Part shown: positions 27,901-50,174 of the stretch, piece after piece
How positions within the stretch are numbered: the stretch's first letter is position 1
Layout of the letters: each line of letters begins with the position of its first letter
Origin: Branchiostoma floridae
Lineage: Eukaryota; Chordata; Leptocardii; Amphioxiformes; Branchiostomatidae
DNA: 64,000 nt
Direction: 5' to 3'
NCBI RefSeq assembly: GCF_000003815.2
Contig: NC_049979.1
Span: 19,645,654-19,709,653 of the forward strand
The notes under the pieces: model-generated
Told to the model about the DNA's origin: nothing
The model's input: the letters and a program-made list of their open reading frames with translations, nothing else
Database searches by the model: none
Position numbers and translations under genes: made by a program

Positions 27901-30900
27901 ATTTAGAGCGACTGTTAGGAAGACAAAGCGAACCAGGATATCTGTTATTGGTAAATCTGGTGCATTCAAAGTAAAAATGATAGTCACGTGTTAAGCTTTT
28001 TTGTGTTATTAGTCTGATAGAAAATGTAGTTTGATCATTGTGAACTCACAGAGGAGGTGCTGGACACCGGCCAAACAGTGGAGGCATTGCAACCGGCTGT
28101 GACACGTCCAAAATCAACCTGTCACCCATCCTTCACTACTACTACACCCAACCACTTCCACAAGTCCGTCACACCATCTGTGCACTTCTCCAGCATGGAT
28201 CTGGATTAGGAGATTTCAGCCTAGAGCCAGGAGACACACCCATTCATGCTCTGCTCAATGTGGAACTGAAGAGCGGTACGGACATACTGTCCTCCCATGT
28301 CAATACATTAAAGATGTGTTTCAATTATGATTTTTTACCTAGTTTACTGCACATTTAGGCTGGTATATAACTTTGGCTGTTATGGTGAGAGATTGCGTTC
28401 ATTTTACAACTGCGGAATGATAATTTTTTTATTCATAGTTTTTTGTATCTGCTAAAATGTTTTGTATGTTTGCAGGTGACAACAGTCTTCAGATAATGAC
28501 GATGGTCTGCGAATCTCTCACATCGCGATTCAGTCACTCACTTAAAGCTACCAACGCAAAAGGCAACACCCTATTACATGTAGTCACCATGGCAGATAGA
28601 GACCACCTGAGCACCAAAAGCTGTGCCTTGCGGGCTTTGACGCTTTTGCTTCAGGCTGGGCTGGACCCTGGCATCACTAATACTGATGGGAAAAAGGCCG
28701 TCCACTACGCTCGGAAAGGATCCGAGCTCTTTTATCTCTTGGAGAATGGATGCGATGAAGGTGCGTAATAGATAAGATTAAATTCTGCTGAGATGTGTTA
28801 TCACAATGATCAATGATGGCTTATCAAGCCACCAAAGTTGAAGAAAATAATGAAAGTAGATATCTGCATTGATAAAGAGGCCCACTAGATTCACCATTGA
28901 ATATTACGCATTTTTTTCCTGCAGCTCGAGGCGCATCAAACAACTTCTCACAGCCGCCACCAACTCAACCACAGCCCAGTCAGCCATCAGTTCCTCCGCA
29001 CACATCAAAAGATAAAGGACAAAAGACTAAAGCACACATGACTCCCATCGAACGGGCCAGGAAGTTCATGCAAGAGGGAAAATCCATGGATGCTCTGAAG
29101 ATCTTTGCACGAACGATCAGTGAAGCAAAGCTAAAAGGCGATGGAGACATGACTGCAGAACATCAACAATGTCTGGAAGGCATAGCTCATGCAATGGAGA
29201 ACATCAAAGGTAAGTACCATTAGTTGTACAATAGTTGTACCAATAGTAGCATATCGGTACAAATAGTAGCATTTTGGTACAAATTTGCCTTTCAAAATTC
29301 TATATGAGTTAGCTATGACTCCATAAGGTTGACTATACGGACATCTTAAGTAACTGGTTTGTTTCCCATTAGATTAGCAAAGATATGCCTCTAACTTTTT
29401 CCTCCTTGAAGTGTACTTGACATCTTTCTCTGGTTACTTCCCATTGCCTTTTGTTAACCTCGAAAAGCAAATGGTTGCAAAGTGTATCCTCAGACTGATG
29501 GATTTACAGTCTCAGAGTGAGTCATGTTATTCTGTCTCAGTTATAATGATGGTTAAAGCTAAATAACTTTTCATATTCCCGAAAATTTGAATTATGCTTT
29601 TCATATTACTTGTTCAGTGGTACCGAGACAAGTTGTCGTTGAGGCACCTCTGTCCGTGTGGCGGGGCACTGTGGTAAAGCTATCATCTCAAAAGAGGTGG
29701 CGCGCCCTTGGGATGCTCCTGACAGGAGGAGGGAACTACTGCAACACCGGTGACGGAGGTCTAGCCACCGGCTGCAACACAACATGCGTTCCCTTGGTGG
29801 AAGTCTTAAAGTTCTTTGAGAGCGAGGAAGGGAAACAGAGTGGTCTGAGGAAGTACAGCGTGATAAAAACACTGTTGAAAGGCGGTACCTCCCCAGACGG
29901 AGACACCAACGACACCCACCCCATCAGCCACTGCCTGGAGAGTGAAGACTTTGCAGCAGTTCAAATGCTTCTTGAACAAGGAGCAAACCTTTCCAAGCTG
30001 ACACTCCGGGAAGGGGATACTCCTTACCATGCAGCGGTCCAGATTGCAAAAGAAGGTGGTCAAAGTCAAAGTCTTTTTATTGCTTAAATTTATCTATCAC
30101 AACGTTAATTATTTTAGTACAATTGCAACTACTGTAGCTTTTGGATGAGAAGATTTCAACAATTTCTGACATTTTTCATGAGTAAGTACAATATGTATCT
30201 ACATATATGGGATGATTGTACTTTTTTTATTCTATCAAAATGTACCACATGGGATTGTGGATTGCTTAGAAGAGATATGTTAGTGTCTTTCACCCCATGA
30301 GATGTTACATATGGCAGGAATTAGTCGACTAAAAATCGTTCCTTCAACTTCCACTCAGGAAAATGTGGAATCCTGAAACTCCTCATCAGCAAAGGAGAGA
30401 TTGACCATAGCATCAGGGACTCAAGTGGAAACACCTTGATGCATGTTGCTGTCAAGGGAAAGTAAGTGATAATCACTATCTTGTAGACTCTGTAATACAA
30501 ATGTAATGATAATCTCTTTGTTGATTAGAATGGGAAGGAAGTGTTTGATTCATTGGTTAGTTTATATGTCAAAGGTTTGGACTGTATGACTGCTTGTTTG
30601 TTTGTTTGGTTGGTTGGTTGGTAGGTTCTTTGATTGGTTGGTTGGTTGGTTGGTTGATTGTCTGCGAGCCCTCCTTACTTGCTTGATCATGTTACTATGG
30701 TTTTACTGATCAAACTTGCCTTACCGCTTCTAAGCTGTGATTTCCCATTCTACAGATATTCAATGGACGGTGCAAAGCTCATAGAAGAACTAGTTCGCAT
30801 GGGTGTTGACCCGTCAGTAAAGAACAATGAAGGCATGACGCCACTCGACTACCTGAAGGAGGGAGATCGCAGAAGACATCTTTTGGAACCACTTATGGAG

Positions 30901-33900
30901 AAACAAAAACAGGTACCAACAAGGAAATCAGACCACAACATCAACAATAATAATTCCAACGAGATGGACAAAGGTATGACAAGTTACCCAGCTGACACAA
31001 CTGCAGATAGCTGGGAGGACGCCGCAGCTACCAGGGAGTCAGGAGACAAGAAAAAGCCTACTCAAGCAAAGAGACAGATATCGTCATCTCAGGCGCAAAA
31101 GAAATCAGTCAAGGAAGATATTAAAAGCCGCATTCTTCATTCCATTGAAACCATTCCGTTGCTGAATAAGGAGGAAACAGAGGAAAGGCTGCTCCGNNNN
31201 NNNNNNNNNNNNNNNNNNNNNNNNNNNNNNNNNNNNNNNNNNNNNNNNNNNNNNNNNNNNNNNNNNNNNNNNNNNNNNNNNNNNNNNNNNNNNNNNAGAG
31301 ATGAAGACTACCAGACACCAGTTACGATGTTTTTGACAAAGGCCTTCCATGGGAAGTGGAGTGTACTGACAAGGTGAAGAAGATTCTGAAGAAGAAGAGT
31401 TTTCCCTATGACATCAAGAAACGCGTGGTAGAGAAGGTAAACCGACTTGCAAAAGGAGAGTGGATCCCTAACTTGACAAAGACAGTTCGTGGTCGGCCCC
31501 AAGAAGAAGGAATGCGGTTGTTTGAAGCAAAAATAGACAAAGCTTCCAGGATCTTGTGGGAGATAGCCATCGCCTTTTCACCACGCTTGAGTGATAAGCC
31601 AATAAAGTGGCTAAAGGGGGCCCAAGAAGCAGAAGAGTCCACCACCTTGACATCTGGGGGTCGAATCTACACTGAGATCATCCGGCTCTGGGACATCGTC
31701 CTTGATCATGACAACCTTGAACGTGCTATTGACCAGGCGGTAACATCATTCGTGCGGGGTAAAGCCAGCATGCCCATGGCAAAGAAGAGTCTCATTGGAA
31801 GTACAAGCCTGCAATTCAAATCAGCTCCAGCCACCACCGATAGGCTTCCAATGTTGTTTACTGAGAAAGAAATCACAAACAGAACCAAAGAGATCCCAGA
31901 GGAACAGCAGTTCTTCCCTGCAGCCAGTTCTAATGAGAACGAGTACAACATTCTCAAGTTCTACTGCTTTTCATCTTCCTTGGTCAACAACATCCTTCGA
32001 GATGACAGCTTACCAGTAGAGTTTCCCTTCAAAGTGACCGACCTGGAACATGCCATTGTCCATCTGAAAGCCCAACCTCCCTCGTCGATCCTACTACTTG
32101 GGCGAAGTGGGACAGGGAAAACAACATGTTGCCTATTCCGGCTTTGGTATGCATATTTGTCTTACTGGACCAAGAGTGCTGCTCATGGTTTTGAACCGTG
32201 GGTTCCAAAAAGCAAGGCATATATTCAACGACGCATCAGAGCAAATAATGAAGATGACAATGAAGAGGAGGAAGAAGAGTCAGAGATCAGTCCAGCTGAA
32301 AACAGTGGCTCAGAAGAGGAGACTTGTACAAAAAACAAAAAGGAAGTGAACAATGTAGACAATGGTCACCAAATCCATCATCCAGAAACCAAAGTAGACC
32401 CCTCCATGCAGAAAATAGATGATGAGGATGAATCACTCCACACAGAGATGACAAAGCGTGACTGGAAGGAGCCAGAACCAAAAGAGAATCTGGATCGTGG
32501 CGAGCAAGAGTTTGAGCACCTTCATCAAATCTTTGTGACGAAGAATGCTGTACTCTGTAGTGAGGTTGGAAAGAACTTTCGTGAGCTTTGTCATGGAACT
32601 GAAGCAGCTCAAAAGTACCTTGAAGCTGACCAAGATGAGAAGATTTCAGTAAGACTTCAAGACGTTGATCCAGCAGGCTTCCCGCTCTTCCTGGACTCCA
32701 GGCAATGGTTGCTTATGTTGGATGCTTCTCTGGAAGAGCCCCACTTCTTTAAGAGAGGTGATGGAGGACATATGACTGAAGAGATACCCGGTTGGATGGA
32801 GAATGATGGTCCAACGACATTCATCCCTACAGATTCTGATCTAGAAGACGACTCTGGTGATGATGATGATGATGACTTCGAAGGTGGACAGGAGCTCGAC
32901 AAGTTGAAAGCAGCAATCGATGCAGCTGAAGATAGCGGTCGACCCCAACATGAACGGCTCACTATGAGACGAGAAGTAACGTATGAAGTGTTCCGCACAG
33001 AGTTGTGGAAACGTGTGAATCGTGGGAGAGTAGAGTTCCATCCTACCCTGGTCTGGATGGAAATCATGTCAATCATCAAAGGTTCGGTTGAAGCTGTTGA
33101 GACAAAGGAAGGGTTCCTCAGCCGTGAAGAGTACCTTGAAATCGGCAAGAAGCGTGCAGAGTTTACTGGTGACCGTGACATGATCTACGACATCTTCCAA
33201 ACCTACCAGCATGAGAAACGACAACGACACATGTTTGACGAAATGGACTTCGTACACAATCTGTACAAGCGACTTGCACAGGCCGAGGATGTAGACTGGT
33301 CCATACATCAGGTGTATGTGGATGAGACGCAGGACTTCACCCAAGCTGAGCTTGCATTGTTGATCCGCTGCTGCTGTGACCCAAACGAAATGTTCTTCAC
33401 CGGAGACACGGCTCAGAGCATCATGAGAGGGGTGTCCTTTCGATTCAAAGACCTCCGCTCGCTGTTCCACAAGGCCAGAGAGTCACTGCAACAGATGGGA
33501 AAGAGGACAGCAGTGCAGGTACCCGACATGTATCATTTGACGCACAACTACCGGTCTCACTGTGGCATCCTCGACCTGGCAGCAGGTGTGATCAAACTAC
33601 TGGAGAGGTTCTTTCCCTACTCATTCGACCATCTACCAAAGGACAGGGGCATCATGGAGGGACCCAGGCCCCTTTTGCTGCAGGGATGCTCACAGAAGGA
33701 CTTAGTCACCCTTCTACAAGGAAACCGTCGAGCGACATCCACTATTGAGTTTGGCGCTCACCAAGTTGTTCTGGTGGCAAACAGTGGGGCAAAGGAGGAC
33801 ATGCCTGATGTGTTCCGTGGATCACTGGTCCTCACCATCTATGAATCGAAGGGACTGGAATTTGATGATGTGTTACTATACAACATCTTTAAGGACTCAC

Positions 33901-36900
33901 AGGTAAGCAATGTATCAAACTGTCTTGTATATATATACATATATGTTTAATGATCTGGACGTTTGCGGTTGGTTGTGATAGTAATCTCACTGACAATCTA
34001 AATACATTATTGAATTGTTGTTTTAATACTTTATTTGCAGGCAAACGAAGAATGGAGGGTTGTGTTGACCCGCATGGAAGAGGATATGGGCAAGGCTTCC
34101 AACACAGAGGCACGAGTAAAATCGGAAGGATTGTTGAAGATTGACGATGACCAGAGCAGTGCTGTGGCACAGGCCAGACCTCTGGAATTCAACCCAGAGA
34201 AGCACAAGGCATGTAACTTGGTCTATTTGTTCACTTTAAAACCCTATATTGAATGCTGAATGAGATGTTTCTGTTTCATCAACTCCCATCCTTTCTCTTT
34301 CTCCCCCGTCTTATGTATGTTTGTCTTTGGTGTTGGTTTAACCAAATAACGCCTACCTCTTTTTATCGGTTAGGTGCTGAACTCTGAGCTCAAGAACTTG
34401 TACACTGCCATCACTCGTGCAAGGGTGAACGTCTGGATTTTCGACGAAGACACAGCTAAGCATGCCCCAATGTTCAAGTATTTCCTTGCACAGCAGTTTG
34501 TCGAAGAGCCACAAAGGGATGAGCAAGGTGAGTACTGTCCTTTTTGACTGTCCATGACAGATCATGGTAACAGTCTTGATCCTGATATGTTTCCTGGGAC
34601 AACACCTTATCTGACTTGTATTTATTTTAGGTCAGCTGTCTTCCAACGTCTTCGTGAAAGAGTCCACACCTGAAGAATGGTGTCAGCGGGGTGAGTACTT
34701 CTACAAGAAGGAGCGATGGGAAATCGCTGCAGACTTCTTCAAGAAAGGAGGAGATCGGAAGAAAGCAAACATGGCCTTGGCACAACATCTCGCTCATCAA
34801 GCCAGCCAGGACGCGACTATCACAAGAGAGAAACACAAGATAAGACAGAGGTTCCTGGAGTCAGCAGACCTCTTTCTGCAAAGCGGAAATCACGTGGACG
34901 ACAGAGACGCCCTGGTCAGAGCAGCCCGGTGCCTCACCAACTCAAGGGACTACCAGCTAGCAGCTCAGCTGTTTGAACGACTTGGGGAGGTATGTTGTAA
35001 CTTTTCACTCCTTCACGATAAGTGCTATATATGTAACTATGGTTTTCATCATTCCCCAGAACAGCCCATGTGGCGTTATAGTAATTAGTTGATAGTGCTC
35101 TGTACACAAATAATTCCATGGCACCATGCTAAAAGGACAGCTTTTTCATGATGTACTAGTAATGCCTTGCCTTATCATGACCACTTATTTATTAGGGATA
35201 ACAGGGCCAAAGAACAGAAAGAAAAACTCTTGTAGATGGTACCCATGCAAATGTATCCTGGGATTTATCATCCTAGTGCTTTGAAAATTGTTTTCCTGTG
35301 CACACAAGTACTAAGTACCACGTATACCAAGTGAGGCCAAACAACATGGAGATGTCAATAATGTGAATGACCACAAGAGGCAGAAGGACAACTACAGTTG
35401 TTTGGCACAAAGTTGGTAAGAGAAGTTCTTAAGCGAGGTATGCATTTCTGTTCCTAGTTTTCAAGCGCTGCCCATCTGTACCAGAGAGAAAACATGAAAG
35501 TGGAGGCCAGTCGCTGCTTCGTGCAGGCCGGAAACTTCAAGAAGGCGGTAAATTTCTTACGAAGTGTCGATGAGTATGAAGCTGCTGCTGATGTGTCCGA
35601 GCAGTATGTCAAGTTGCAAAGCAAGTGCCAGCAGGAGGGGCTGAATCCAACTGTTGTAATGACAGCGCCTATTCACACACCAGATAACCTTCTCCTTGCA
35701 GCCATTGACCACTACCACAGGCATGGCGAAGAAGAAAATATGGTAGCTTGTCTGAACCGACTCCCAGTTGATACCCGTCTGACATTCTTCAAGAAACACG
35801 GCCATGAAAAGGAAGCAGCAGAGCTTCTGAAGAAAGAGGGAAGGGGTCAGGAAGCGGCCGAGCTGCTGAAATCAATAGGAGAGTTTGAAGCTGCCGCCAA
35901 AGCTGCAGACCAAAACCAAAATCCACAGTTTGTAGCCGAGTGTCTACTCATCCAAAGTCGCAAGCAGAGGAAGCATACGACAACTGACATCCAAGGGACC
36001 AAGGACAACCTGATAACTTGTATGTTCCTATACAACAAGTGTGGCAACAATGAAGGCAGGGCTGAAGCTAAGATGATGCTTGGAGACTTGACAGATGATG
36101 ACAGTATGCTAAAAAGTGCTATCAAGCACTTTGGGATCAATATTGCAGGAGCTCTGGAGGCAGCAGCCCTGCTAGTGAAGAGGAAGAAGACCTTGACGTT
36201 CAGTGATATTCACCACATCCTGGCACTCATGGAAGACTTCTTCAGCCTGATAAGAGCTCTCTTGCTCTTCAGGGGACACAGTGTAAAAGAGCAGCAATGG
36301 ATAAAGGCATGTGAGCTATTCTACGGTGTGAAACGCACAGACGTCCGCAGTGCAACATTCTCTTCATCCGAAGAGCCACGTATCTTGGATGCCTTGGACA
36401 GAGACTTTCCTGGGAAAAGCAAGTCTACAGCGAAGATGGACCTCCACACAGCAAGAGCATGCATGGCAGGAGACCTCCTCAGAAACATAGATCAGCTGAA
36501 AGAAAAGTTGACAAAAATGCTACAGTCTATTGCAACAAGAAGCCGAGTATGCCATATGTACACAGCTGGATTGAGCTGTTGGAAAGGGGATGCCTGTGCT
36601 TACCTACACCATGCGTATGACAAGGACACTCTCAATTCGCTTCTGCAAGCAACGGTGCTTCTCATAAAAGTTCAAGGGCTCTTTGACCTTGGATATGAGA
36701 AGATAAAAGACAGCACATGGGAGACGGTACAACAGGCTTTCGCTTCCCACAAAGAATGTGGTGCAGAGAAAGGCAGGCTATGTGATGACCTATACGATAT
36801 CCTCTTCCCAACACACGGCCACCAGAGGCTTCTCACTCAGAGCTTCTTGACAGCTAGAGATGTTTTCCACAAGTTTCAGGGAGATGCAATTGTTTTGTCA

Positions 36901-39159
36901 TGCATTCGCGACTATGCCAGGTCTCTATGGGAATCTGCCAGTCACAGCGAAAAAAGATCAAACACAGACCTCCTGATCAAGATAGCCCACCTGTTTCGAC
37001 TAGCCAAAGACCCACCAGTTAACTTCTCAAGTCTACTTGTGTCTGCCGAGGAAGGGTTCAAGAAGGAGGCTTTGAAAAGACGCCATCCAGAGAAGATACC
37101 ACTTCACATTGGCATGATCTGCTTGAAGGGTGGTACGACCAATCCAGTGTTTGTCAGCGTCATGAGAAGACTTGAGGAATTCATCCAAGACATCTACGTA
37201 AGGGAAAATGTTCTGTCTTCAATGGGCAACATGAGGGCTTTCATGGGTTTGCTGGCTAAGAGGGCTAAGGAGCCACTTATCCCGTCGTTTGCAAACACTT
37301 GCTTCTTCTTGGAACTACTTGTTGTAATCTGCTACTCAATGTATGCCAAGATGAACCAACACATGCTGCTTTGCCTCCCTGCAAGCTACATCTCAATGGT
37401 CCACTTGTTTGATCGCCTGTGGAGCAATGGTAGGACCTCTATCTATTCATCCATCGAAAGGTTGCCTTACAGGAAAGATGAGGTGCTAGAGAAGATTAAT
37501 CAATGCATTTGGTTCATCATAGACATCATCTGCCAAAGTGAAAAGTTCCCTGATTTCAACGTCATTGATGATGCCTTCCGTCCAAACATCCCTGACTATG
37601 CGGAAAGCGGCGAGATGGAACGAGTCTTCATCCTGGCAGCAGTGTTGATTTGTGGTTGTGGTGGGCCTGTGGCAAAGAATGCCGAGATTCCTTTGCGGAG
37701 AGCTCTGTACCAGATTAACATCAAGAAACACTTTCCACAACGACTTGCAGATGCCATCAGAGGAATGAGATCAGCCAAAGGAATACGGGATGTTGTGATC
37801 CTCCTACGAGACTTACTACAGGCCAGGGATCAGGAGTACCTTCGGCACTGCTGTTGGAAATATCCAGGCAAAATGACAAGGGGTACCGGTATCTACAGGG
37901 GACTCAACTTCGAGCAAGTGAAGCCTGATATGTTCATCAGAGGTTTCTGGCGAGAGATGGCAGTAGAGTTCTACTCCCATGATGATGATGTTGTAACGCA
38001 TGCCAATGACAACACTGTCCACTCTCACGCTGATGATGCTGTGAATCATACCGACGACAACCCAGTTAGTGCGCTCTCACAAAACGACATGTGCGAAACG
38101 TCTGGCAATGACGTCCTCAACCCACATGGTAGCGCAAGAACTGTAGAGATACCGGTAGAAGCTTCACAGGCTGACTTGGAAGATGACATGTTTCATGCCC
38201 AAGACGAAGATGATGTCATCATTGAAGATGAATTTGAAGAAGAGGAAGTTGATGATGGTACCCAGACTGCGGATGATCCTACACTTACAGAAGGCCTTGA
38301 AAATATAAATAGAAGGATTTTGGAACAACAAGCTGATATGAAGCGACGACAAAAGGCAGCAAGCACAATTCAACAGTTTTGGCGTGCACTTGGCAGAATT
38401 GGGCCAAAGATTGAGAAAACAGTGTTCGAGTCAGCACACAGGATTACAAACATTGAACGTCAGATGTCAGTGGAGCAAGATGACCTGCGTGAATTCAAAC
38501 TTGACGACACAGGATGCCGCATATGTGGCGTCACTTTTGGGTCTCGTCCACATATCCGTGATGACGCGGAAGAACAGGAGGAAGATCAGGAAAGGGAAAA
38601 CTTCGAGGAAGCCTGGGATGTAGATCCTGATGGGGTCAAACCAGAGGAGGAAGAGCTAGATATCATCACTCGCGAAAAGCATTTGCAGGACCCAATGCAT
38701 TCAAAGAATCTTAGTGAGTTTGCTCAGTTCAAGCAATTCTACACCACAGATGTTGCTAGGGTCCAGAAACGGTTTGACAAGTTCACACTTGAAGCTGATA
38801 ATGACAAGGAGAATGAAGGAGCGGTCATGTTGGAAATCCAAAAGGTAAACACAGCACAGGACTTGCTTCGGAAGTTACTCGAGAAGATCAAAGATGAATG
38901 TTATTGGAACAAGCGACAGGATGCCTATGAAGCACTTCGCAACCTTCAAGAGGCTCTTGTTGCATTTCGGAGAGCAAAGCGTCTCATAGAGAGACAGGCT
39001 GATGAAGAGGGCACATTGGCGGCATTCGCGGATGAAGAAGGCGAAGAGTTCCGCAACCTTGACGAAGATGACTTCATCGCTGTTGGTGTGAAGAAACAGC
39101 GTGCAAAGGGCAAAGGCGGTCGCCAAAGGAAGAAGAGAACTAGAAAGAATCAGAAGTGA
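24935..39159 (+). CDS. TRANK1: TRANK1-like protein: TPR, ankyrin, SF1 helicase, CCCH finger, IQ
   Basis: Phase-consistent coding exons: 24935-25064, 26556-26797, 27287-27452, 27708-27825, 28052-28275, 28476-28760, 28925-29209, 29618-30055, 30359-30461, 30756-31196 (into the gap), about 31305-33902, 34041-34208, 34374-34527, 34631-34989 and 35458-39159. Over 3,100 residues, near human TRANK1 (about 2,900). Order: acidic N-terminus; TPRs (exons 2-3); ankyrin-type repeats (exons 5-10); SF1 helicase with Walker A GRSGTGKTT (32100), DETQD (33321), GDTAQS, NYRS, KGLEFDDV and AITRAR, all intact; alpha-helical TPR/HEAT-like repeats; C-X8-C-X5-C-X3-H finger (36550-36609); IQ motif (38368-38397); basic C-terminus. 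It looks catalytically competent. Cellular role is unknown; nucleic-acid unwinding is inferred from motifs. Exon 1 was chosen for its ATG and a GTAGGT donor whose phase fits exon 2. Confidence 0.92.
25395..26275. repeat. Clustered GCGTAGAGCGTA repeats and duplications in TRANK1-like intron 1
   Basis: Variants of gcgtagagcgta recur about every 35-40 bases at 25395-25580 and again at 26190-26260. Between them, two diverged copies of a 'aaatgcaggaaat(t/a)gcgtttca' block occur (25603 and 25897), the second followed by a GC-rich 'gagcatgcccccgg' stretch. A perfect tandem duplication of about 56 bases (acacaaacgctcagtcgctc...) covers 26067-26177. Probably remnants of one composite transposable element. 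Confidence 0.6.
27075..27128. repeat. Perfect 27-bp tandem duplication in intron 2 of the TRANK1-like gene
   Basis: The unit beginning tattcacttgaattgtgacg occurs at 27075-27101 and 27102-27128 without a mismatch, so the duplication is recent or is an assembly artefact. Confidence 0.85.
30593..30660. repeat. (TTGG)n/(TTTG)n microsatellite
   Basis: Tetranucleotide runs of TTTG followed by TTGG in the intron between coding exons ending 30461 and starting 30756. Confidence 0.9.
31197..31296. other. Assembly gap of exactly 100 N inside the TRANK1-like gene
   Basis: 100 undetermined bases of conventional size, so the true length is unknown. The reading frame entering the gap (from exon 30756) differs from the frame of the large helicase exon after it. 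That frame also has a TGA at 31302, just past the gap. An acceptor-like ctaccag at 31308-31314 suggests the next exon begins about 31315. Confidence 0.95.
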
Positions 39160-40455
39160 AAGCACCAATGGGTAAATAATGAAAAGCAGGTTTCAACGTC
39201 ATCTTGGATTTGGATGTCAAGAAACTTATCTTACCTTACAAGTGAAACAACTTTTTGTCCAAGAGAAGTGTCAGAATAGTTAATCTGGTTTAGTTAGTTC
39301 TTGTACTTACAATTTTCCTATTAATTGTAAAGATGCTATGTTTTGCAGTGAATCTACCAACCATAAAGGTAGTGTTAGACAAGTACATGTATTAGAAGCT
39401 CATAATGCTTACAAGATATCTTTCGTTTAGATTAGCGAGATTAGATTAGAGAATGAGAGTAGAATATATTTTCGATAGATTATGGTCTACAATGGCTGGT
39501 TTGTGTGACAGAAGATTTTGATTGTCTTGTCCCTCTTTTCTGGATCTGCATTGCATTGGATACGAGGGGCGTTCAAGAAGTAATCCACCTGACCCATTTC
39601 CCAAAGGAGGAGATTAATGAAACTTGGTGCAGTTATTAGTCTTTCTCTTCATAGGAATCACCCAGAGTTATGCATTTCTACCATCGTTTGATGCAGCTCT
39701 GTACACCGTTTTTGTAGGACGCCCCAGGTTGGTCCTGCAACAGATGCCTCATCAATGGCAGAAGAGGGACGACCAGGTCTGGGAGCTGTTTCCACAGACT
39801 TCCGGCCATGTTTGAATTCACAATGCCAGCGTTTTACAAGGTCATATGATGGGGCATCATCACCATAAGTTTCTTTTATTTCATCAAAAGTCTCATTTGG
39901 TATGCGTCCTTTCAAATACAAAAACCGGATCACTGCGCGACACTCAACTGGCTCCATTTCACACCTGGTCCATTTCACACCTGACTCAGTTCAAACACCT
40001 TTAAATCAAAAACCAAAATTAGTTCAGAGCTGTTTTTTGCAACATAACCCATAAAGATATGAATCATTACATATGCAAAATTTCATCTAGATCAGACAAC
40101 TGGAAGTGGGTCAGGTGGATTACTTCTTGAACGCCCCTCGTAGTATATATATCCACCCAAAAATTGGCTTAAAAGTCCTTGTAACTCTTCTAATCATGTT
40201 CAACTCAGGCAAACTGGTAAAAATTGTAGTTGTTCCAGACCAAATGATGCTACAGCAACAATTTGCTTTCAAATGGCATTCTATATTAACATCTCACTAA
40301 TCTCATGATCAGGCCTGTTTTCATTTCAATTCATGCCTGGTCTTTAGTGTGCAAGTTTGTGTGTGTGATTACATTTACAACCTAGAAAGCCTAGTAGCAA
40401 ACACTAAGAAATGTTTTGGTCATATTTTGAAATAAAGTTTTTGTTGATTTGTATC
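39160..40455 (+). other. Probable 3' UTR of the TRANK1-like gene
   Basis: Non-coding sequence after the stop codon, with the first good AATAAA at 40431-40436. If this is the signal used, the mariner remnant at 39563-40140 lies within the UTR. Confidence 0.4.
39563..40140 (-). mobile_element. Internally deleted mariner-family transposon
   Basis: Target TA dinucleotides flank both ends (39561-39562, 40141-40142). Inverted ends begin CGAGGGGCGTTCAAGAAGTA and match for about 33 bp. The - strand has the N-terminal transposase region near 39955 (EPVECRAVIRFLYLKGRI, then YDLVKRWHCEFKHGR), the helix-turn-helix DNA-binding part of mariner transposases. The frame then passes into unrelated residues and stops, so the catalytic DDE region is gone. 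At 578 bp it is less than half a full mariner and cannot be autonomous. Confidence 0.92.
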
Positions 40456-41778: not shown

Positions 41779-44700
41779 CTAGTGTGACATGTCCATGACA
41801 TCAGCAGAAGTCACTGTCTCCCACGATGAGCTAGTCTTGTCGATAGGGGGCAGTCTTCCCAGGGTGATGCTGCCGCCGCCTCGTCTCTTCCCCAGGTTGG
41901 CCTGGAACGGCATCGCCCTGGCTCCCAAGTTTCCCTTCTTACCTGACAGGGCAAACAAATTGCATGTTGTTAGACAAGATCACGATCAGAAGATGATGAC
42001 CATGATAGAAATTACAGTTGAAGAACATAACCGGAAGGGAATCTGCAAAAGAAGAGAAGGTTCATTGTGATGGGTCAAGTCCACTCTTCAAAGTTCTTGG
42101 GATGACTCCACTATTTTCAGTCCAAAGGTCCAGAGGACAGTTATAGAATTTTCATCTGACAGTGACTTTTTTTAAAGGTATACACATACCTCCAAATTTT
42201 TTATGGCTGTCTGTCCATCTTGTTCATGGAGTGACCTAGTCTCGCGAGCAAGAGACCTAGTCCCCGTGAATAAGATGGACAGATAGCCATCGAAAATTTG
42301 GAGGGACTAATGAATCTCTTCAACAAAGTCTAGAGGAAATGTAAATCATGACAATATTGATCATAATGGTAACTTACGATTGCCCCATGGCGGTAATGTT
42401 CCATAGTGCCTTCCACGTGGAGGCAGTCCTCTCATTGGGCGAGCTCTCACTGCGAAATGAGACGAGACAGGATGAGAATTCCATTGGCATTTTTGGTGAG
42501 AGGTTACATGTAATTGTATCAACAAAAATAACACATTCTCCTCTTGCAAAAAGGTAAAACCTTCTCAATGTAGTTCTTCCGCATGCTGTTTTCTTTCTTG
42601 TATACAATGTTTCTGTAGTTCATTCCTTTTTTCATAGGTGAATTATTCGTAATGTAATACTTTGAATAGTGGAAGATTTTCCTATACATCTATCACTTGT
42701 TTCTTTGCCATTTTCCACATCTTCCTGGGCTAAGGTGGTACAAATATCTAAAACTACGATTACAACAATGGAACATCTCCCGTCTTCGTACTTTTGAAGA
42801 GAGACCTGAGGTAACAGCAGAGTATCTTCCTTACCTGATGGTAGATGGGTTGGTCTTGTCAGCTGTCTCGCTAAAGCCGGGTAGCCGTACTTCTGAAGTG
42901 CCTTGCAGAATATCGGGAAGCCATGTTCAGGCCTGTGGGTAATACAATAAATTTTAGACTCGGCTATAACGCAATAAAGAGATTTCAAAAACATTAAATT
43001 GCTGCCTGAAACTTGGCATACATTAACGTCCTGGTTCAAGCCAGATTCATCATAATATGACAATAATCATTTCAGAGTATTAAAGAATTATCAAATGCCT
43101 TTGAAACCAATGGATTATTCCTGGGTAGACTAACGATGGTGGCATGCTTTTATAGATCTCACAAGAGCATGAGTAAGATGTATAAACAGAGCTTCCCATG
43201 AATAAACAAACAAAAACAAAAGCTAAAACATCTAGTAAAGATCCACACCTTTCGCTCAGGATGTCCACGAGTTTGGCGGCTTCGTCCTGTCTGGTGAGCT
43301 GTGTCAGTATGGCGGCCATGTCTGCCTCCCTGATGGCGTGGTTCTTCAGCATGTAGTCCCGGATGTCGCGCACGTCCAGGTGACGTATGATAGTCAGGCG
43401 GTGACGTTGCAGCGCCAGCTTGTGTTGTGCCTCAATACCTACAAAACAGGTTTAAAGAAACATAAGTAATGTGCCCTGATATTTTCTTATTTTTTGTACC
43501 AATCTATATGAGGAAAACACATGCTAAGTTGAGTATAATTCGTAGTTAGAGGAGATTTGTTTTGAGTCTCCAAACGTTTTTTTTTTTTAATTTACTGTAG
43601 AAGCTTTTTCATCATGAGAAATGCGTACGTAGCATTTAACGTTACTGATGAAATAATCATTAGTTCATTGCAGTCACAAACTAGGTAGCAGACAGTGAGA
43701 TGAAACTTCCCGGGAGTATTTGGCCCCACATTACTTTTTGCTCAGTCTTAACAAAAGTACATGTACATTCGTATTCAATATCGTACACGTGATCCTAATG
43801 ATCTAGACACCGACCTTTGTCGTCGTACGACTTGGCGACGTAGTCGTTGACCATGGGGAGCCGCCCGATGGTGCTTGGGGCGTGCAGGCTGCTGGAGATC
43901 CCCGGGGAAATAGTCGACTCGCCCAGAGACAGGTCCTTAACAGAGCTGGACATGGACGCCAGGGACGACTGTTGGTCCTTCAGACGAACGGATGGCACCT
44001 TCAGCTCTGAAAGTAGAAAAATCCGTGTGCGATGTTAGCTTTTAAATATGTCTGAAATTAAATGACCTTATTCTTGCAGCAGGATCGAAAGTTGTTTCTG
44101 TACTCAGGCACTATATTTGTTGGATAACCTAACCGAGCTAGGAAAATTTAGAAGCTAAAATATTTTTGTCGGCAAAGCATCGTCATGACATTCTCCAAAC
44201 AGAGTTTGGGTCGAGGAGAGGGAGGTAGTGGCTGGGATTTTTACTGCTCCTGAGTGGAGGGAGCGGTAAAAATCCCGTCCATTCCGGACCCCCGGACCCA
44301 ACCTTTGTTTGGAGAATGTCGTCATGTAACCCTAATGATCGCTGCGAATATAATGTGTCCCTGAAGGTCAGACATCGAAGTTAGGGCTGCCCATTGACAA
44401 GCATGTTGAAATACACTGAATGAAGGCTTCAAAAAAGTATTAACCCATAGTTCAATCTTTAAAATTCTTCTCCACCAGAAAGTCACTTGGGTCTAGTTTA
44501 TAAGCATTCAAAGAAAACAGAGGGTTGTTTGGCTCATTCTCGGAGAAAAGCTCGCTCTATGAAAGAAACCTCACCTTTGACCCATTTTCCCTCCTGATAC
44601 AACCAGTAGCACCCTATAACTAAAACCTGTCCTTACACCAGCTGAACTGCTGAACTGAACAAATTTTGACCCAAACAGGAAAGCTTAGACCCTACCTGTC

Positions 44701-47700
44701 TCTTCTAAGTCAAAAAGTCTCCAGATTGGGCAAAAATTTTCAAGGAAAAGAAGGATTTTCAAGGATTTTAAGTCACACCCAAATCGTCTTCCCATTTTTT
44801 GCCCTCTACCGCGCAACGCAACTCTGACGTCAGCCCTGAAGTGCTATGAGCTCTGACACTTAGATGGAAGTGTTTGTCATGTACAGATAGATTAGATATG
44901 ACAGACGATACCTGTCTTGGTGGCGATAGGCCTGAGCAGTTTGGCAGCGAGTCCCGGGTACCCGCACCGCTGCAGGGCGGCACAGAACACGTTGAAGGCC
45001 CGCGGTCCTCGCGCCATGATCATGTGGATGAGCTTGGCAGCCTCGTCCTGATTGGTGAGCTCCGTCAGGATAACCTGGAACTCAGCCGGCTTCAGAACCT
45101 TCCTCTGGACCAGGTAGTCTCGTAGGGGCCGAACGTTTAGTTCCTGTGGGACGACGTCGAGCATATTAGTCTCCGATCCATCGTTTAAGATTGTGTCCGC
45201 TCCAAATATTCAACAAGCTTAATATGGACAGCTTCTATTGGGATATTGGATTGTAGCAGCAGTATAGTACCGTATATACCAGACGTGCACTATAATCCAA
45301 CAATCCAACGCAATTGACGTCAACTTAGTAAACAAATACCTATAAAGAAGCCCACCTGTATGATAGTAGCCCGGTGCTGCATGAGGATCTCCCGGTACCT
45401 GTCCTCACCGACCGCGGCCGTCAGAGGCAGGAGGGACGGTACTGGGTCAGGCTGTATGACCACCTCCACACCACTGCCCAGGTCCAGCTGTGGGATCACT
45501 GCGGAGAGGACGTAGGTAGGTAACGTTATCACTATTCACATGTAGTCGCCACATGCACATTTGAAAGATATGAACGATCCTTCTCTCTTTAGTCTTTGTT
45601 ACGTTAGAAAACTTTAATACTGTACAAACCTTCTGATGCTTCTTGAAACGGACTTAAGTCTAGTTGCTAGATATGCTATGACCCATTGATTCGTGACAAC
45701 ATGCTGCTTCCTGATAATCATTTAGTGACAAAGCTGAGGTGGGCAGAAGCACTAATGAATAATGCATCTCTTGTTGATGTATATATGATGTTGAAATATA
45801 GGGTTTAACGAGTTTCCTCTAAATCATGCTATAGTGTACTAGACTATGTTGTGCACTTTACTACATGTTGTGAAGATAGTGCATCCTCTTGAAAATCATA
45901 TCGGTAAAGATCGTTACACACCTGTAGTCATCTTTGGTTTGATGTCGACTGCAGGAGTCTTTGGCGTGTTGACCACATATCTCCGTAGTCCTCCCGTCTC
46001 TGTCAGAGAGAACAGAAAAGCAAGTTAGCACATCTTAAAATCTCCTGGTTTCTTTAACTAATATAAATGACATAGTACATGTATGGGATTTATAATATAT
46101 TGCAGATAAAATATTAGGTTGGTCCATTGCTGATGCTGAGTGGGAGGAATGATTTACATTTTGAAAAAAAAAAGAAGTACGAGGTAGTGTTTATCTAACC
46201 TTCATCCGGCGGGAACACAAGTTTGGGATCCACGAAGCCCCCGGCGGCCCTGGGACAGATCACACGCCTCTTGCCACGAGGCTGGCGGAGAACCTCCTAG
46301 ATAGAGGAGAAAAGGTATTGGGTGAATGTAGAAACGTTGCGGGTTTGATGAAACACCAAAAGGAAGCTTGTCCTAACAATGTTCACGCAGTGCACAAGTG
46401 TGTGAAATGTCAGGGGCAGTGTTAGGGTTAGCGTAATGAGTTATGCACAACAAGTACATGCAGTTCTATACCCACCTTGTAGAACATGTGTGGCATCTCA
46501 ATGTTGCGCTTGACGCAGTGGGGGCAGACCAGATAGACATCGTGCCTCAGGCCCGGCCAGCTGGTCAGTAGAGCAGCCACTCCCTGGAAAAGTACACAAA
46601 ATTTACTATAACTTATAAGCACAAATTCAAAAGAAGCATTAAACATTATTATTGGCAAAGTAGACAATAATAAAATCATAAATTGCATATGGAGTATAGT
46701 GAAAAATGTTACCCGATAGATTCTGAGGATTTCCGTCCACATGGTGTCTATCTCGAAGCTGTCCCCTCGCATGGCCAGCTCCACCACCGCGGAGCTCTCC
46801 GCTGCCCTACGGCCCAGGTAGACTCTCATCCGGGAGGGTGTCGTCGCCAGGACCCCATCCTTCCAGTCCGCACGGGTAGCCACCGGATCGATGTACTCCT
46901 GCATACGGACACTGGCTGCTTCAAAGAAGCCCGTCGGATACCACTGTCTAAAGCCAAAGATGATGGTGAGTTGTTCGGTGTCCTCCGGTACCCTCGGTGG
47001 CCAGAACAGCTCGTAGTGTGTCGCCTTGGCGTCGTCCGAGAAGTACCACGGGACGTGCATGACTCTGTTGTCGGACCGGCTGGTCGTGACGTACCAAAGG
47101 CCGAGATGCTGCAGGGCGGCGATGACCCCAGACAAGATGTCCCCGTACAGATCGCCGAACTGGCTCCACAGGAAGCGCAGGATCGTCTCGTCGAGGATGC
47201 CGTGTTTGAGGAAATCCGCCTTGCGGTCTTCGAAGTCGTCTTCACTGATGTTCCTGACGCCAGCTGACCGGAAGCGTGGGTGGTTGAAGTCGAAGAGCTT
47301 CTCGATGTCACCTCTGAGCAGGAACAGGAAGATGACCTTGATGACCTTGAAGAACTGTGTAGGGTTGGGGAACAGCAGGTCGCTCAGGAGAGGAGACTCA
47401 ATCTCGGCGCCAAACCAGAAGATGTCCCGTCTGTGGTGAAGGAACCTGATTGCGATTTCCAACTTTGGGCCACTGAGACCTGTCAGCTCTCGGGCGACTT
47501 CTTCTACTTCGTCCCATGTCATGACTTGCCTCCCCTCCCCGTGCCTCTTCAGGACGGTGTACAACTCTCTCCATGACCACGGCACCGGGAAGGCCTCGCT
47601 GTTAGCTGGCTTCTTCTCCTTCATCATGAAGCCGACGATCTCGTTTGCTAAGTCGTCCAGACCAGCTAGCTCCGGTGAGGAGCTGACCGCGAACACTTTG

Positions 47701-50051
47701 CTCGGCAAGCTGCAGCGATTGCGGATGAAATGTTCCAGCTCCTGTCGTCTCTCCAACAGCATCTCCCTGTTCAAGCCGTACAGTTCGTTGGACGGTTCCA
47801 GTCTACTGTGGCTTTTCATAGCGTCGTTGATGTCTTTGGCTTTGGTCTGCAGGTCCGATATGAGGTGCTGCTCTTGTTGCTGGATGCGCGCCATGATTTC
47901 CACGTGCTTGGCGGCGAAGTCTTTGGCTGTGCAGAAGTCGCTGTGAGTGCCGACCAGAAGGACTCGGCACTGCGGCACGCGAGCGTTCAGCAGCTCCAGC
48001 CAGTTCCCGACCGCCTGTCTGTACTTCGAACTGACGTACTCGTGTGCGTTGAACAAGACCAAATACAGGGCGTTCTTAGGAATAACCAGCCGGTCGGTGA
48101 AGTAGTCGAAACCGCTGGTGTCCACCAATTCCACTTCGAACTCGTCAAACGTCCACAGATGACTCTCCGGGACGGTGGGGTTCTCTGGGTAGAACGGTTC
48201 GTCGTCCTCTCCTGTCAGGTGAGACTCACTCTGCAGAAGTGTCCGCACCAAGCTGGACTTCCCTGAGCCGGGTCCTCCCAGCACCACCACCTTGTGATGA
48301 GGCATCTGCGCGATCCCCGTTCTCTTCATCTCCGTCACATACTCGTATATCATGGGCAAACCTTCGTTGCAGACGTCTATGGGAGGCTGGCGGAGGGGGT
48401 TGTCCTTTACCGTGAGCACTGTCAGTCCCGCCATTTCCAAGATGGCGTTCGGCAAGGCTTCAATGTTGTTACCATCCACGAGAAGAACTCTGAGTTTCGA
48501 CAGGAACTTCAAGTCCACGGGCAGCCAATCGATGTCGTTTTCTCCCAGATCAAGTTCCTCAAGCTCATGTAGCAAAGTCAGCTCCTTAGGGAAGGCCTCG
48601 AACTGATTGTTGCGAAGCTGTACCTTCTTCAGACGTTTTCTTCCCTTGATGCCCTTCAGAGTGCTCAAGTTGTTGTTGCTGACATTTAGTTCCTGTAGCT
48701 CGCCCATGTTGGGGAGCAGGTCCGAGATGGAGCTCAGGAAGTTGTTCTGTAGACAGAGGATCTTCAACTTCCCCCACTTTGGTGCCTGGCCGGTAGGAGT
48801 CGTAGTGAACAGCTTATTGTCCGAAATGTCCAGTTCTATCAACTTGCTCCTCTGGAGGAGAAACGCGGGTATGGAGGTCAGACAGTTCCGCTCAACGTTT
48901 ACTTTCTTCAACCTCTTCATGAGGCATTCCTCCTCTGCCACATCTGCTATATGGTTGTTCGACATGTCCAGTTCCTCCAACACGACGAGGCTCAACACAA
49001 CTGCAGGGATTTGCACGAACTTGTTACCGGCCAAGTTGAGTTTCCTGAGACGCTTGGTACACTCCAATTCGTAAGGCATTTCCTTGATCGCATTGTTCGA
49101 CGCGTCTAAGATTTCTAATCTCTCTAGTTTCTCTACAATTTCAGGAAGCGTTTCAAACCTGTTGTCTGACATCTTCAATCTCTTGACGCTAGTGGCACCA
49201 TAGATTTTACCCTCTACGATCCAGTCTGCCATCTGATTGTTCGAAATGTCAATATCTTCCACTCCTTTCAGTAGAGACACGATTTTGGGAACAGACTGGA
49301 ACTCGTTCTGAGAAAGATTGATTCTTCTGAGTTTTGACAGGTGGCAGGGTCCATCCGACACCCTCCGGAGTTTGTTAGCCGAAGCATCCAAGACTTCGAG
49401 ACTCTTAAGGTCAAGTATGAATCGAGGTAGAAAGGGCAGCTCGTTGTGGCTCACGTCCAGTCGTTTGAGGAACCTCATGCGGCACTCCTCGTCGTCAGTC
49501 ATTTCCCTCATAGTGTTGAACGATACGTCAAGTTCAATCAGAGCGCGCATGCCCAGTACGGCCTTCGGGAAGGACACGAACCTGTTCCGAGACAAGTTTA
49601 ACTTGGTGACTCTCTTAAGCCTCGGCTTCTCCGGGAACGTCGTGAGTTGGTTACCGGAAAGATCCAGCTCTTCTAGATTATTCATGCCAAGAAGTACTTC
49701 GGGTACAGCCTTGACTAGACGGTTGTTTGAAAAGTCAGCGCGCCGGAGCTTTACCAGGGAAGCCATCTTTAACGGCAGAGATTTGATGAGATTTTCCTTC
49801 ACCAGTAGAACCTCGAGCGACCTCATGTCCGCTATGTCGGGCGTGATCCGCGCGATCTTGTTGTAACTCAAGTCCAAGGTCACGACGTCCTTGAACTGGT
49901 AGACCTGGAGGGGCACGGTGACCAGGTCACACCGGCACAGGTTCATCTCTCTCTTGCCGCTGTCGTCTGACGACACTCTGGACGCGATGTCTCCCATGGT
50001 CAGGCTCATGGCCGGGGCCACGGGCTGCTGCATCACGTCAAGGGCGGCCAT
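41779..50051 (-). CDS. LRR-ROC-COR-CARD-CARD protein (Roco family, MFHAS1-like)
   Basis: Eleven coding exons with consensus splice sites and matching phases: 46713-50051, 46476-46583, 46200-46296, 45922-45999, 45356-45498, 44912-45143, 43815-44006, 43249-43438, 42835-42932, 42378-42449 and 41779-41942. They total 4,713 nt, 1,570 residues. Residues about 35-575 are roughly 20 leucine-rich repeats. ROC GTPase follows, with P-loop GGPGSGKSS (592-600), DTSG (about 645) and GTHSD (about 699). A COR-type region runs from about 800 to 1110, then a CPHC motif. CARD1 is at about 1238-1330 (core PLRDYLVQRKVLKPAEF, DEAAKLI, FNVFCAALQRCGYPGLA). A Ser-rich linker precedes CARD2 at about 1398-1485 (DIRDYMLKNHAIREADM, DEAAKLVDIL, FPIFCKALQKYGYPALA). 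Predicted cytoplasmic GTP-switched adaptor signalling through CARD-CARD contacts; this role is inferred. ATG at 50051 has a good context (AAAATGGCC). Confidence 0.93.
42189..42304. repeat. Hairpin MITE in the last intron of the Roco-CARD gene
   Basis: Imperfect arms of about 45 bp, starting cctccaaatttt and ending in its inverse aaaatttggagg, with 'tgtccatctt'/'aagatggaca' inside. Confidence 0.6.
44182..44328. repeat. Hairpin MITE in the CARD1-linker intron
   Basis: Arms catgacattctccaaacaga... and its inverse (...tgtttggagaatgtcgtcatg) of about 30 bp, with an inner inverted pair gggatttttactgctcc/gagcggtaaaaatccc. Confidence 0.65.
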
Positions 50052-50082
50052 TTTGAAATGACTACAGTGCCGATTATCTTAC

Positions 50083-50174
50083 CTTAGACTTGACTTCAAA
50101 GTGTTCAGAGGTATACTCCTTTGTTGCTTTGTCTAAAGAAGCCATTTTGCAATCCTCTTCAAATGGCACTTTTC
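50083..50174 (-). other. Candidate 5' exon of the Roco-CARD gene with an upstream ATG
   Basis: On the - strand the acceptor cttcttttcag is followed by 29 bases, an ATG in good context at 50145, 21 open codons (MASLDKATKEYTSEHFEVKSK) and a GTAAGA donor at 50082. If unspliced, the frame stops two codons later, making an upstream ORF ahead of the main ATG. If spliced to an acceptor inside the large exon (for example ATGCAG near 50025), it would give an alternative N-terminus. The next AG is only about 20 bases away, too close for a normal intron. Confidence 0.4.

Follow-up and report, generated by a model that had tools for sequence, protein, structure and literature searches.

A Branchiostoma floridae Roco gene predicted to end in two CARDs, and its family of paralogues with differing C-terminal modules

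Does a single gene of Branchiostoma floridae join a body of leucine-rich repeats (LRRs), a ROC GTPase domain and a COR domain to two CARDs, and does such a gene stand by itself? The locus that raises this question lies in a stretch of 64,000 nucleotides (nt) of the 513-Mb, 431-contig genome (G000:C1:19645654-19709653; hereafter the window, whose positions serve as gene coordinates). An earlier note, made from the sequence of the window, had described it as a Roco gene with the order LRR-ROC-COR-CARD-CARD. Our analysis confirmed this observation for the predicted gene, which encodes all five parts in one protein, and revealed a family of paralogues followed by different C-terminal modules. On balance, we lean towards reading this family as a combinatorial set of GTP-switched immune receptors, in which the LRR-ROC-COR body would be re-armed at one phase-1 intron with CARD, Death, SAM, caspase, trypsin-like, OTU or GT4 modules; the set would form an animal branch of bacterial conflict systems beside the NLRs, with the window gene as an inflammasome-like CARD-CARD member.

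The 11 minus-strand exons of the gene, running from 50051 to 41779, were spliced into one frame of 1,570 amino acids (aa) whose sole stop was terminal. All 10 introns were of the GT-AG type, and no inner stop was present across the 1,570 codons, so that the coordinates, exon number and length given earlier were right. The training set of the codon-use model was made up of exon 1 itself and exons of the paralogues. The score was positive in the modelled frame for 11 of 11 exons and negative in all three frames for 10 of 10 introns, and the modelled frame was the best of the three in 10 of 11 exons. These scores support the exons as one coding unit. Each CARD was split by an intron and became whole only after two exons had been joined in the modelled frame.

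Pfam analysis of the joined protein revealed LRR_4 at 147.5 bits and LRR_8 at 141 bits. A simple LRR pattern matched 23 times; 22 matches were evenly spaced by 22-25 residues and one, at aa 116, was out of register, which makes the earlier count of about 20 repeats a fair one. The CARD family scored 105.1 bits over two stretches, and both CARDs were well above the cut-off of 23.9 when taken alone (63.5 for CARD1 and 56.5 for CARD2), as the earlier note had proposed. In the PDB, designed CARDs scored ahead of natural chains for both domains; the best natural chain was the APAF1 CARD for CARD1 (1.4e-6) and caspase-9 and APAF1 for CARD2 (0.005-0.009). An origin of the tandem CARDs by exact exon duplication was rejected, as the introns within them are neither at the same place nor in the same phase. 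The 547-aa ROC-COR segment had 58 other matches in its own genome at 22-38% identity (best E 2e-47, 29%), and nine of nine paralogue frames scanned by Pfam were above the Roc cut-off. A 16-sequence ROC-COR profile found solved Rocos in the PDB (entries 4wnr and 3dpu, with CtRoco, LRRK2 and LRRK1 among the proteins hit), where the ROC of the window gene alone matched the LRRK2 ROC at E 0.0018. By homology over these 547 aa to Rocos above cut-off and by the PDB profile matches, the protein has a ROC followed by a COR, as a Roco does. Among the best 25 of 27 Pfam families (E<=1) for the joined protein, we found no NACHT/NB-ARC of the NLR kind, no kinase of the LRRK or DAPK kind and no COR-A.

The survey of the paralogues replaced the view of one odd gene with that of a family member. 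The survey covered the 5-8 kb that follow each of 19 paralogous Roco exons on the 3' side (L039-L057) and the 2.5 kb that follow four more (L060-L063). These 23 stretches were chosen from 59 genome matches, which include the window gene and several split genes, and a good part of the family lies outside the survey. The first 19 were read by Pfam in all three sense frames and the last four in chosen open reading frames (ORFs) only. A further sense-strand domain above the Pfam cut-off followed the Roco exon in 17 of the 23 stretches, or in 16 without FN3 (Table 1). The Death domains of L040 and L041 were joined from two exons, and the two halves in L041, each just below the cut-off, pass only when joined; the fifth of five survey frames with a caspase hit was left uncounted. 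In L028/L052, one open frame (L052:3620-4303) held both the COR tail and the Death domain. Membership of the module in the same transcript is therefore shown outright for L052 only, and is likely for the others from closeness, strand, splice phase and recurrence. In an antisense control on L043-L049 (7 of the 23 stretches, 21 frames), none of these module domains appeared at E<=0.01. No CARD was found by Pfam in the 23 stretches, which are not the whole genome and in which exon-split CARDs could escape, and a local CARD1+CARD2 profile applied to L039-L049 and L060-L063, not to L050-L057, gave a best E of 0.29.

The place where the modules join the body was examined by splice phase. In the window gene, the boundaries after exons 3, 4, 6, 7, 9 and 10 were all in phase 1, and the domain-internal introns were in phases 0, 0, 0 and 2. 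Phase 1-1 units, such as exons 5-6 and 8-9, are the classical form of exon shuffling. The exon 3 donor was in phase 1, 7 nt past LVFPP, and the same offset and phase were found in L040, L042, L050 and L051. The best donor was in phase 1 in 15 of the 18 paralogue COR tails that were located and in phase 0 in L049 and L052, while L044 had none; L056 was missed by the tail motif, and a phase-1 splice pair was found there by a separate scan. In this survey, the tail motif was defined after the tails had been seen, the donor weights were assumed values, the paralogues are not independent, and the phase-0 donor of L040 nearly equals its phase-1 donor (2.5 vs 2.6). Since phase-consistent splice pairs were easily found (up to 38), only the phase agreement counts. 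This agreement suggests that a conserved phase-1 intron after COR, common to the paralogues, is where the output modules are joined on.

Swapping of modules was assessed with a ROC-COR tree of 20 rows, two of them with long branches and none of them a vertebrate sequence. The window gene grouped with L011 (Death) and L034 (trypsin-like) at a support of 97/96, L012 (Death) paired with L058 (an OTU-GT4 gene that fills 29% of the columns) at 98/96, and L017 (GT4) fell among caspase carriers at 100/100. The eleven module states needed eleven changes, where the minimum possible is ten. When compared in 75-nt segments, L045 (GT4) and L057 (caspase) had 71, 71, 72 and 68 identical positions in the four segments leading up to the phase-1 donor (nt 304; about 94% identity) and only 22-34 per segment beyond it, where the caspase carriers L053 and L060 were similar again to L057. 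L045 thus has the pattern that a module swap at the phase-1 intron would be expected to leave, and it is the only locus in which this signature is sharp. These loci (L045, L057, L060 and L062) form a tandem Roco array at G000:C14:1.94-2.02 Mb, where the module that follows the near-identical COR exons is caspase, GT4 or OTU-GT4.

Further observations were made on the paralogues. The frame of the best-scoring one (L010:1141-3891, minus strand) ends in ...YINITGSSNVQVGTGNEIRVSETC, which resembles a RHIM core; an established RHIM in L010/L039 was rejected, as this RHIM-like end scored 12 bits against a Pfam cut-off of 20. The 3' region of L061:992-1962 (the paralogue at C14:2.000 Mb) appeared ZU5/UPA-like by eye only, and Pfam found nothing there at E<=0.01. 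Shorter ROC-COR frames, of about 611 aa, form a large array at G000:C3:31.9-33.3 Mb and on C191, and both sampled loci (L056, L063) had Death downstream. Survey hits that were left unassigned and uncounted were DDE_Tnp_4, HTH_Tnp_4, THAP and DDE_Tnp_1; also uncounted were RVT_1, Exo_endo_phos, Gal-3-0_sulfotr, ALKBH8_N, Ribosomal_L18A and DUF2922.

What would such a protein do? We consider it reasonably probable that the window gene encodes an LRR-sensing, GTP-gated cytosolic receptor that nucleates CARD assemblies and probably recruits CARD caspases; all that goes past the domain layout we infer from sequence. The protein would be kept inactive by its LRRs, which would also bind a signal of microbial origin or of danger. 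Copies would come together through the loading of ROC with nucleotide and the dimerisation of COR, and the two CARDs, once exposed, would seed a CARD filament. This filament would then recruit CARD-bearing caspases and lead to cell death or inflammatory signalling. Amphioxus caspases are described with DD, DED or CARD prodomains (PMC2575513), and CARD on RIP kinases is described as found only in vertebrates (PMC9573974), which would make a caspase the likelier partner than a RIPK2-like kinase. It seems rather unlikely that the protein instead regulates apoptosis or tissue homeostasis, responding to internal damage as an Apaf-1-like or PIDD-like platform rather than sensing pathogens. Such a role would agree with CARDs that are closest to APAF1 and caspase-9 among natural chains and with a ROC-COR whose sole near-identical genome match is itself, yet the tandem arrays of its sister genes, with their GT4-conflict and caspase modules, show a pattern of conflict genes.

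Findings of several kinds weigh against the GTP-gated receptor and its family as we read them. In an alignment with 15 relatives, the P-loop GGPGSGKS (G1), GTHSD (G4) and SSS (G5) were kept, as was DxxG. Switch II of the window gene reads DTSGFDYF; in the relatives, the residue after D-x-(G/A)-G is H in 11, Q in 3 and N in 1. In switch I, six residues are inserted at the site that is RT in 14 relatives and QT in one. The ROC that had been called intact is so in G1, G4 and G5 and not in its switches. Loss of the GG(H/Q) signature from switch II together with the switch I insert makes normal GTP hydrolysis doubtful. The altered switch II would point to slow hydrolysis, in which case the switch would act mainly by binding and dimerising, with a long on-state. 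MFHAS1 is reported to bind GTP, to have very little GTPase activity and to be nucleotide-dependent in its oligomeric state (PMC6337361). The altered switch II could also mean a dead switch: a single gene with a dead or locked ROC would give a constitutive or LRR-gated CARD scaffold in which nucleotide plays no regulatory part. We regard this as unlikely, since GKS of the P-loop, DxxG, GTHSD and SSS were kept despite 23-30% identity to relatives, even with the replacement of D-x-(G/A)-G-(H/Q/N) by DTSGF, the switch I insert and a Roc score below the Pfam cut-off on its side.

That low score belongs to the same set of adverse findings. The Roc match of the joined protein (Table 1) and that of COR-B (aa 1028-1159, 20.1 bits) were both under the cut-off of 27, so the identity of ROC-COR rests on homology; we hold the two domains, sub-threshold by profile, to be secure by kinship. 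Exon 10 failed the codon-use frame test, exons 4, 7, 10 and 11 had no homology support, and the gene model was drawn from the genomic sequence of one species alone. No domain above the cut-off was found in 6 of the 23 stretches: L039, L042, L044, L050 (36% N), L055 and L061. The antisense control did yield a thioredoxin/GST-type gene and a TCR domain; unrelated genes thus occur in such stretches, and nearness alone is no proof of fusion. In the segment comparison, L062 (OTU-GT4) fell to 54/75 already in the last segment before the donor, and L049 (caspase, 16 Mb away) fell to 40/75 before the donor and was alike again only in the last segment (53/75).

Could the CARD exons belong to a second gene? 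In that case, a Roco ending near exons 3-4 would be followed by a separate tandem-CARD gene; on the side of this reading, intron 4 (423 nt) holds ATTAAA at 45618, and a read-through of exon 4 stops two codons on. We consider this very unlikely. Exon 5 (ORF 45320-45535) has no in-frame ATG ahead of CARD1, and a separate CARD gene would therefore need an unseen first exon, for example within intron 4; phase and codon use were continuous across the exons, and the phase-1 attachment point was as in the paralogues, one of which has its tail and Death in a single open frame. Retention of intron 4 (45499-45921, minus strand) would place a stop after ...MTTGV, and a short CARD-less isoform is possible by this route. 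Exons 3 and 5 were phase-compatible even with exon 4 skipped. A decaying or mis-assembled locus is barely credible: nothing beyond the divergent switch II speaks for it, whereas the 1,570 codons are free of inner stops, no splice site is missing and every exon has a coding signature.

Table 1. Positions of the features of the window gene, and modules found 3' of the paralogous Roco exons
Feature	Position or stretches	Strand	Basis
Whole gene, 11 exons, 1,570 aa, predicted LRR-ROC-COR-CARD-CARD	41779..50051	-	Exon joins, Pfam, codon use
Exon 1: LRRs, ROC, COR-A region, most of COR-B (aa 1-1113)	46713..50051	-	Joins, Pfam, homology
Exon 2: COR-B end with CxHC motif (YLVCPHCVKRN)	46476..46583	-	Joins, alignment
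Exon 3: COR tail with LVFPP; phase-1 donor, proposed module attachment point	46200..46296	-	Joins, donor survey
Exon 4: 26-aa linker, phase 1-1, frame kept if skipped	45922..45999	-	Joins
Exon 5: CARD1, first part	45356..45498	-	Joins, Pfam
Exon 6: CARD1, remainder (CARD1, aa 1244-1324); exons 5-6 a phase 1-1 unit	44912..45143	-	Joins, Pfam, PDB search
Exon 7: Ser-rich linker, phase 1-1	43815..44006	-	Joins
Exon 8: CARD2, first part	43249..43438	-	Joins, Pfam
Exon 9: CARD2, remainder; exons 8-9 a phase 1-1 unit	42835..42932	-	Joins, Pfam, PDB search
Exon 10: basic tail, phase 1-1, weakest exon	42378..42449	-	Joins, codon use
Exon 11: tail and stop codon	41779..41942	-	Joins, codon use
22 LRR core motifs at regular spacing (aa 56-553)	48393..49886	-	Pattern count, Pfam LRR_4/LRR_8
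ROC GTPase domain (aa 587-705)	47937..48293	-	Pfam 22.0 bits (cut-off 27); homology, alignment, PDB profile
G1/P-loop GGPGSGKS (aa 592-599), intact	48255..48278	-	Alignment
Switch II DTSGF (aa 644-648); relatives D-x-(G/A)-G-(H/Q/N)	48108..48122	-	Alignment
Death (7)	L040, L041, L046, L047, L052, L056, L063	sense	Pfam above cut-off
Caspase (4)	L049, L053, L057, L060	sense	Pfam above cut-off
GT4-conflict (1)	L045	sense	Pfam above cut-off
OTU + GT4 (2)	L054, L062	sense	Pfam above cut-off
SAM (1)	L043	sense	Pfam above cut-off
Trypsin_2 (1)	L048:3688-4698	-	52.2 bits; 3' of the Roco grouping with the window gene
FN3 (1)	L051	sense	Pfam above cut-off

Ahead of the gene, a 23-codon upstream ORF was found at 50074-50145 (minus strand) after an acceptor-like TTCTTTTCAG ending at 50174; it closes just before the main ATG and could possibly serve as a translational brake. 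An exon-like stretch at 50173-50083 was rejected as the true first coding exon because its frame stops, and it reads as the 23-aa upstream ORF. The tail-to-tail neighbour at 28044-39156 (plus strand) has large exons, a UvrD-helicase hit of 34.0 bits and an ankyrin hit below the cut-off, and we take it to be TRANK1-like. A Mos1-type transposase HTH fragment (HTH_48, 34.9 bits) was located at 39661-39990 (minus strand), and ARAGORN made no call for a tRNA-derived element that had been suspected near 41.2 kb.

If the reading of a combinatorial GTP-switched receptor family is true, its meaning reaches beyond this locus. NLRs use an ATP-driven NACHT, and a parallel GTP-driven set whose inputs and outputs are of like kind would widen the known designs of animal cell-death platforms. 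The function of Rocos, little understood in the case of MFHAS1 and under debate for LRRK2, would become testable with a plain output (CARD, caspase), and the swap point would offer a direct handle on how receptors change their output.

Comparison with known systems revealed partial likeness in each case. MFHAS1 shares the LRR-ROC-COR body with nothing ahead of the LRRs, and it is reported to have no further domain (PMC6337361), in line with the earlier statement that it lacks a CARD; the two CARDs of the window gene set it apart from that layout. MFHAS1 is described as affecting TLR2/NF-kB signalling (PMC4658032). DAPK1 likewise has ROC-COR followed by a death-fold domain, whereas it carries a kinase before ROC and no LRR (PMC6337361), and the window gene has LRRs, with CARD in the place of Death. 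NOD2 and other NLRs are similar in outline, with an LRR sensor, an NTP switch and a CARD output (NLR layout, PMC2575513), but in the window gene ROC-COR replaces NACHT/NB-ARC and the order is reversed, with LRR first and CARD last; the earlier comparison with an NLR that has ROC in the place of NACHT was supported. The Roco-TIR and Roco-MyD88-like proteins of Aplysia also fuse an animal ROC-COR to an immune adaptor domain, which is TIR and not CARD (PMC9334734).

As many as forty domain combinations are described for animal Rocos (PMC11378527), and some of those in Trichoplax adhaerens carry a CARD or a death domain (Civiero et al. 2014, PMC4104024; repeated in PMC11378527). The Trichoplax proteins resemble the window gene in the fusion of ROC-COR to CARD in an animal and in the presence of many ROCO genes with varied partners (PMC4104024). 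They were compared by description only, and the available part of that text makes no mention of tandem C-terminal CARDs or of a swap point. The claim that no Roco with tandem CARDs had been described therefore has to yield on CARD Rocos as such (PMC4104024); of the tandem arrangement, no case was found in the open-access literature searched, figures excluded. Nothing was found there on one-intron module swapping in an animal Roco family either, and papers under subscription may have been missed.

For the bacterial LRR-AP-GTPase-COR proteins, at least 24 different domains are described at the C-terminus, GT4, caspase and trypsin among them, and several such proteins can occur per genome (PMC8195603). 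Like the family described here, they have N-terminal LRRs, an AP-GTPase with COR and a variable C-terminal effector or adaptor, and their paralogues within one genome differ in effector, with GT4, caspase and trypsin common to the paralogues of B. floridae (PMC8195603). The window gene and 17 of the 23 paralogue stretches have this AP-GTPase-conflict layout, in architecture only and with linkage outright in one paralogue. The output in B. floridae differs in its metazoan CARD and Death domains, spliced on at a phase-1 intron, and the likeness is architectural only. The family is best read as a putative animal counterpart of the bacterial LRR-ROC-COR conflict proteins.

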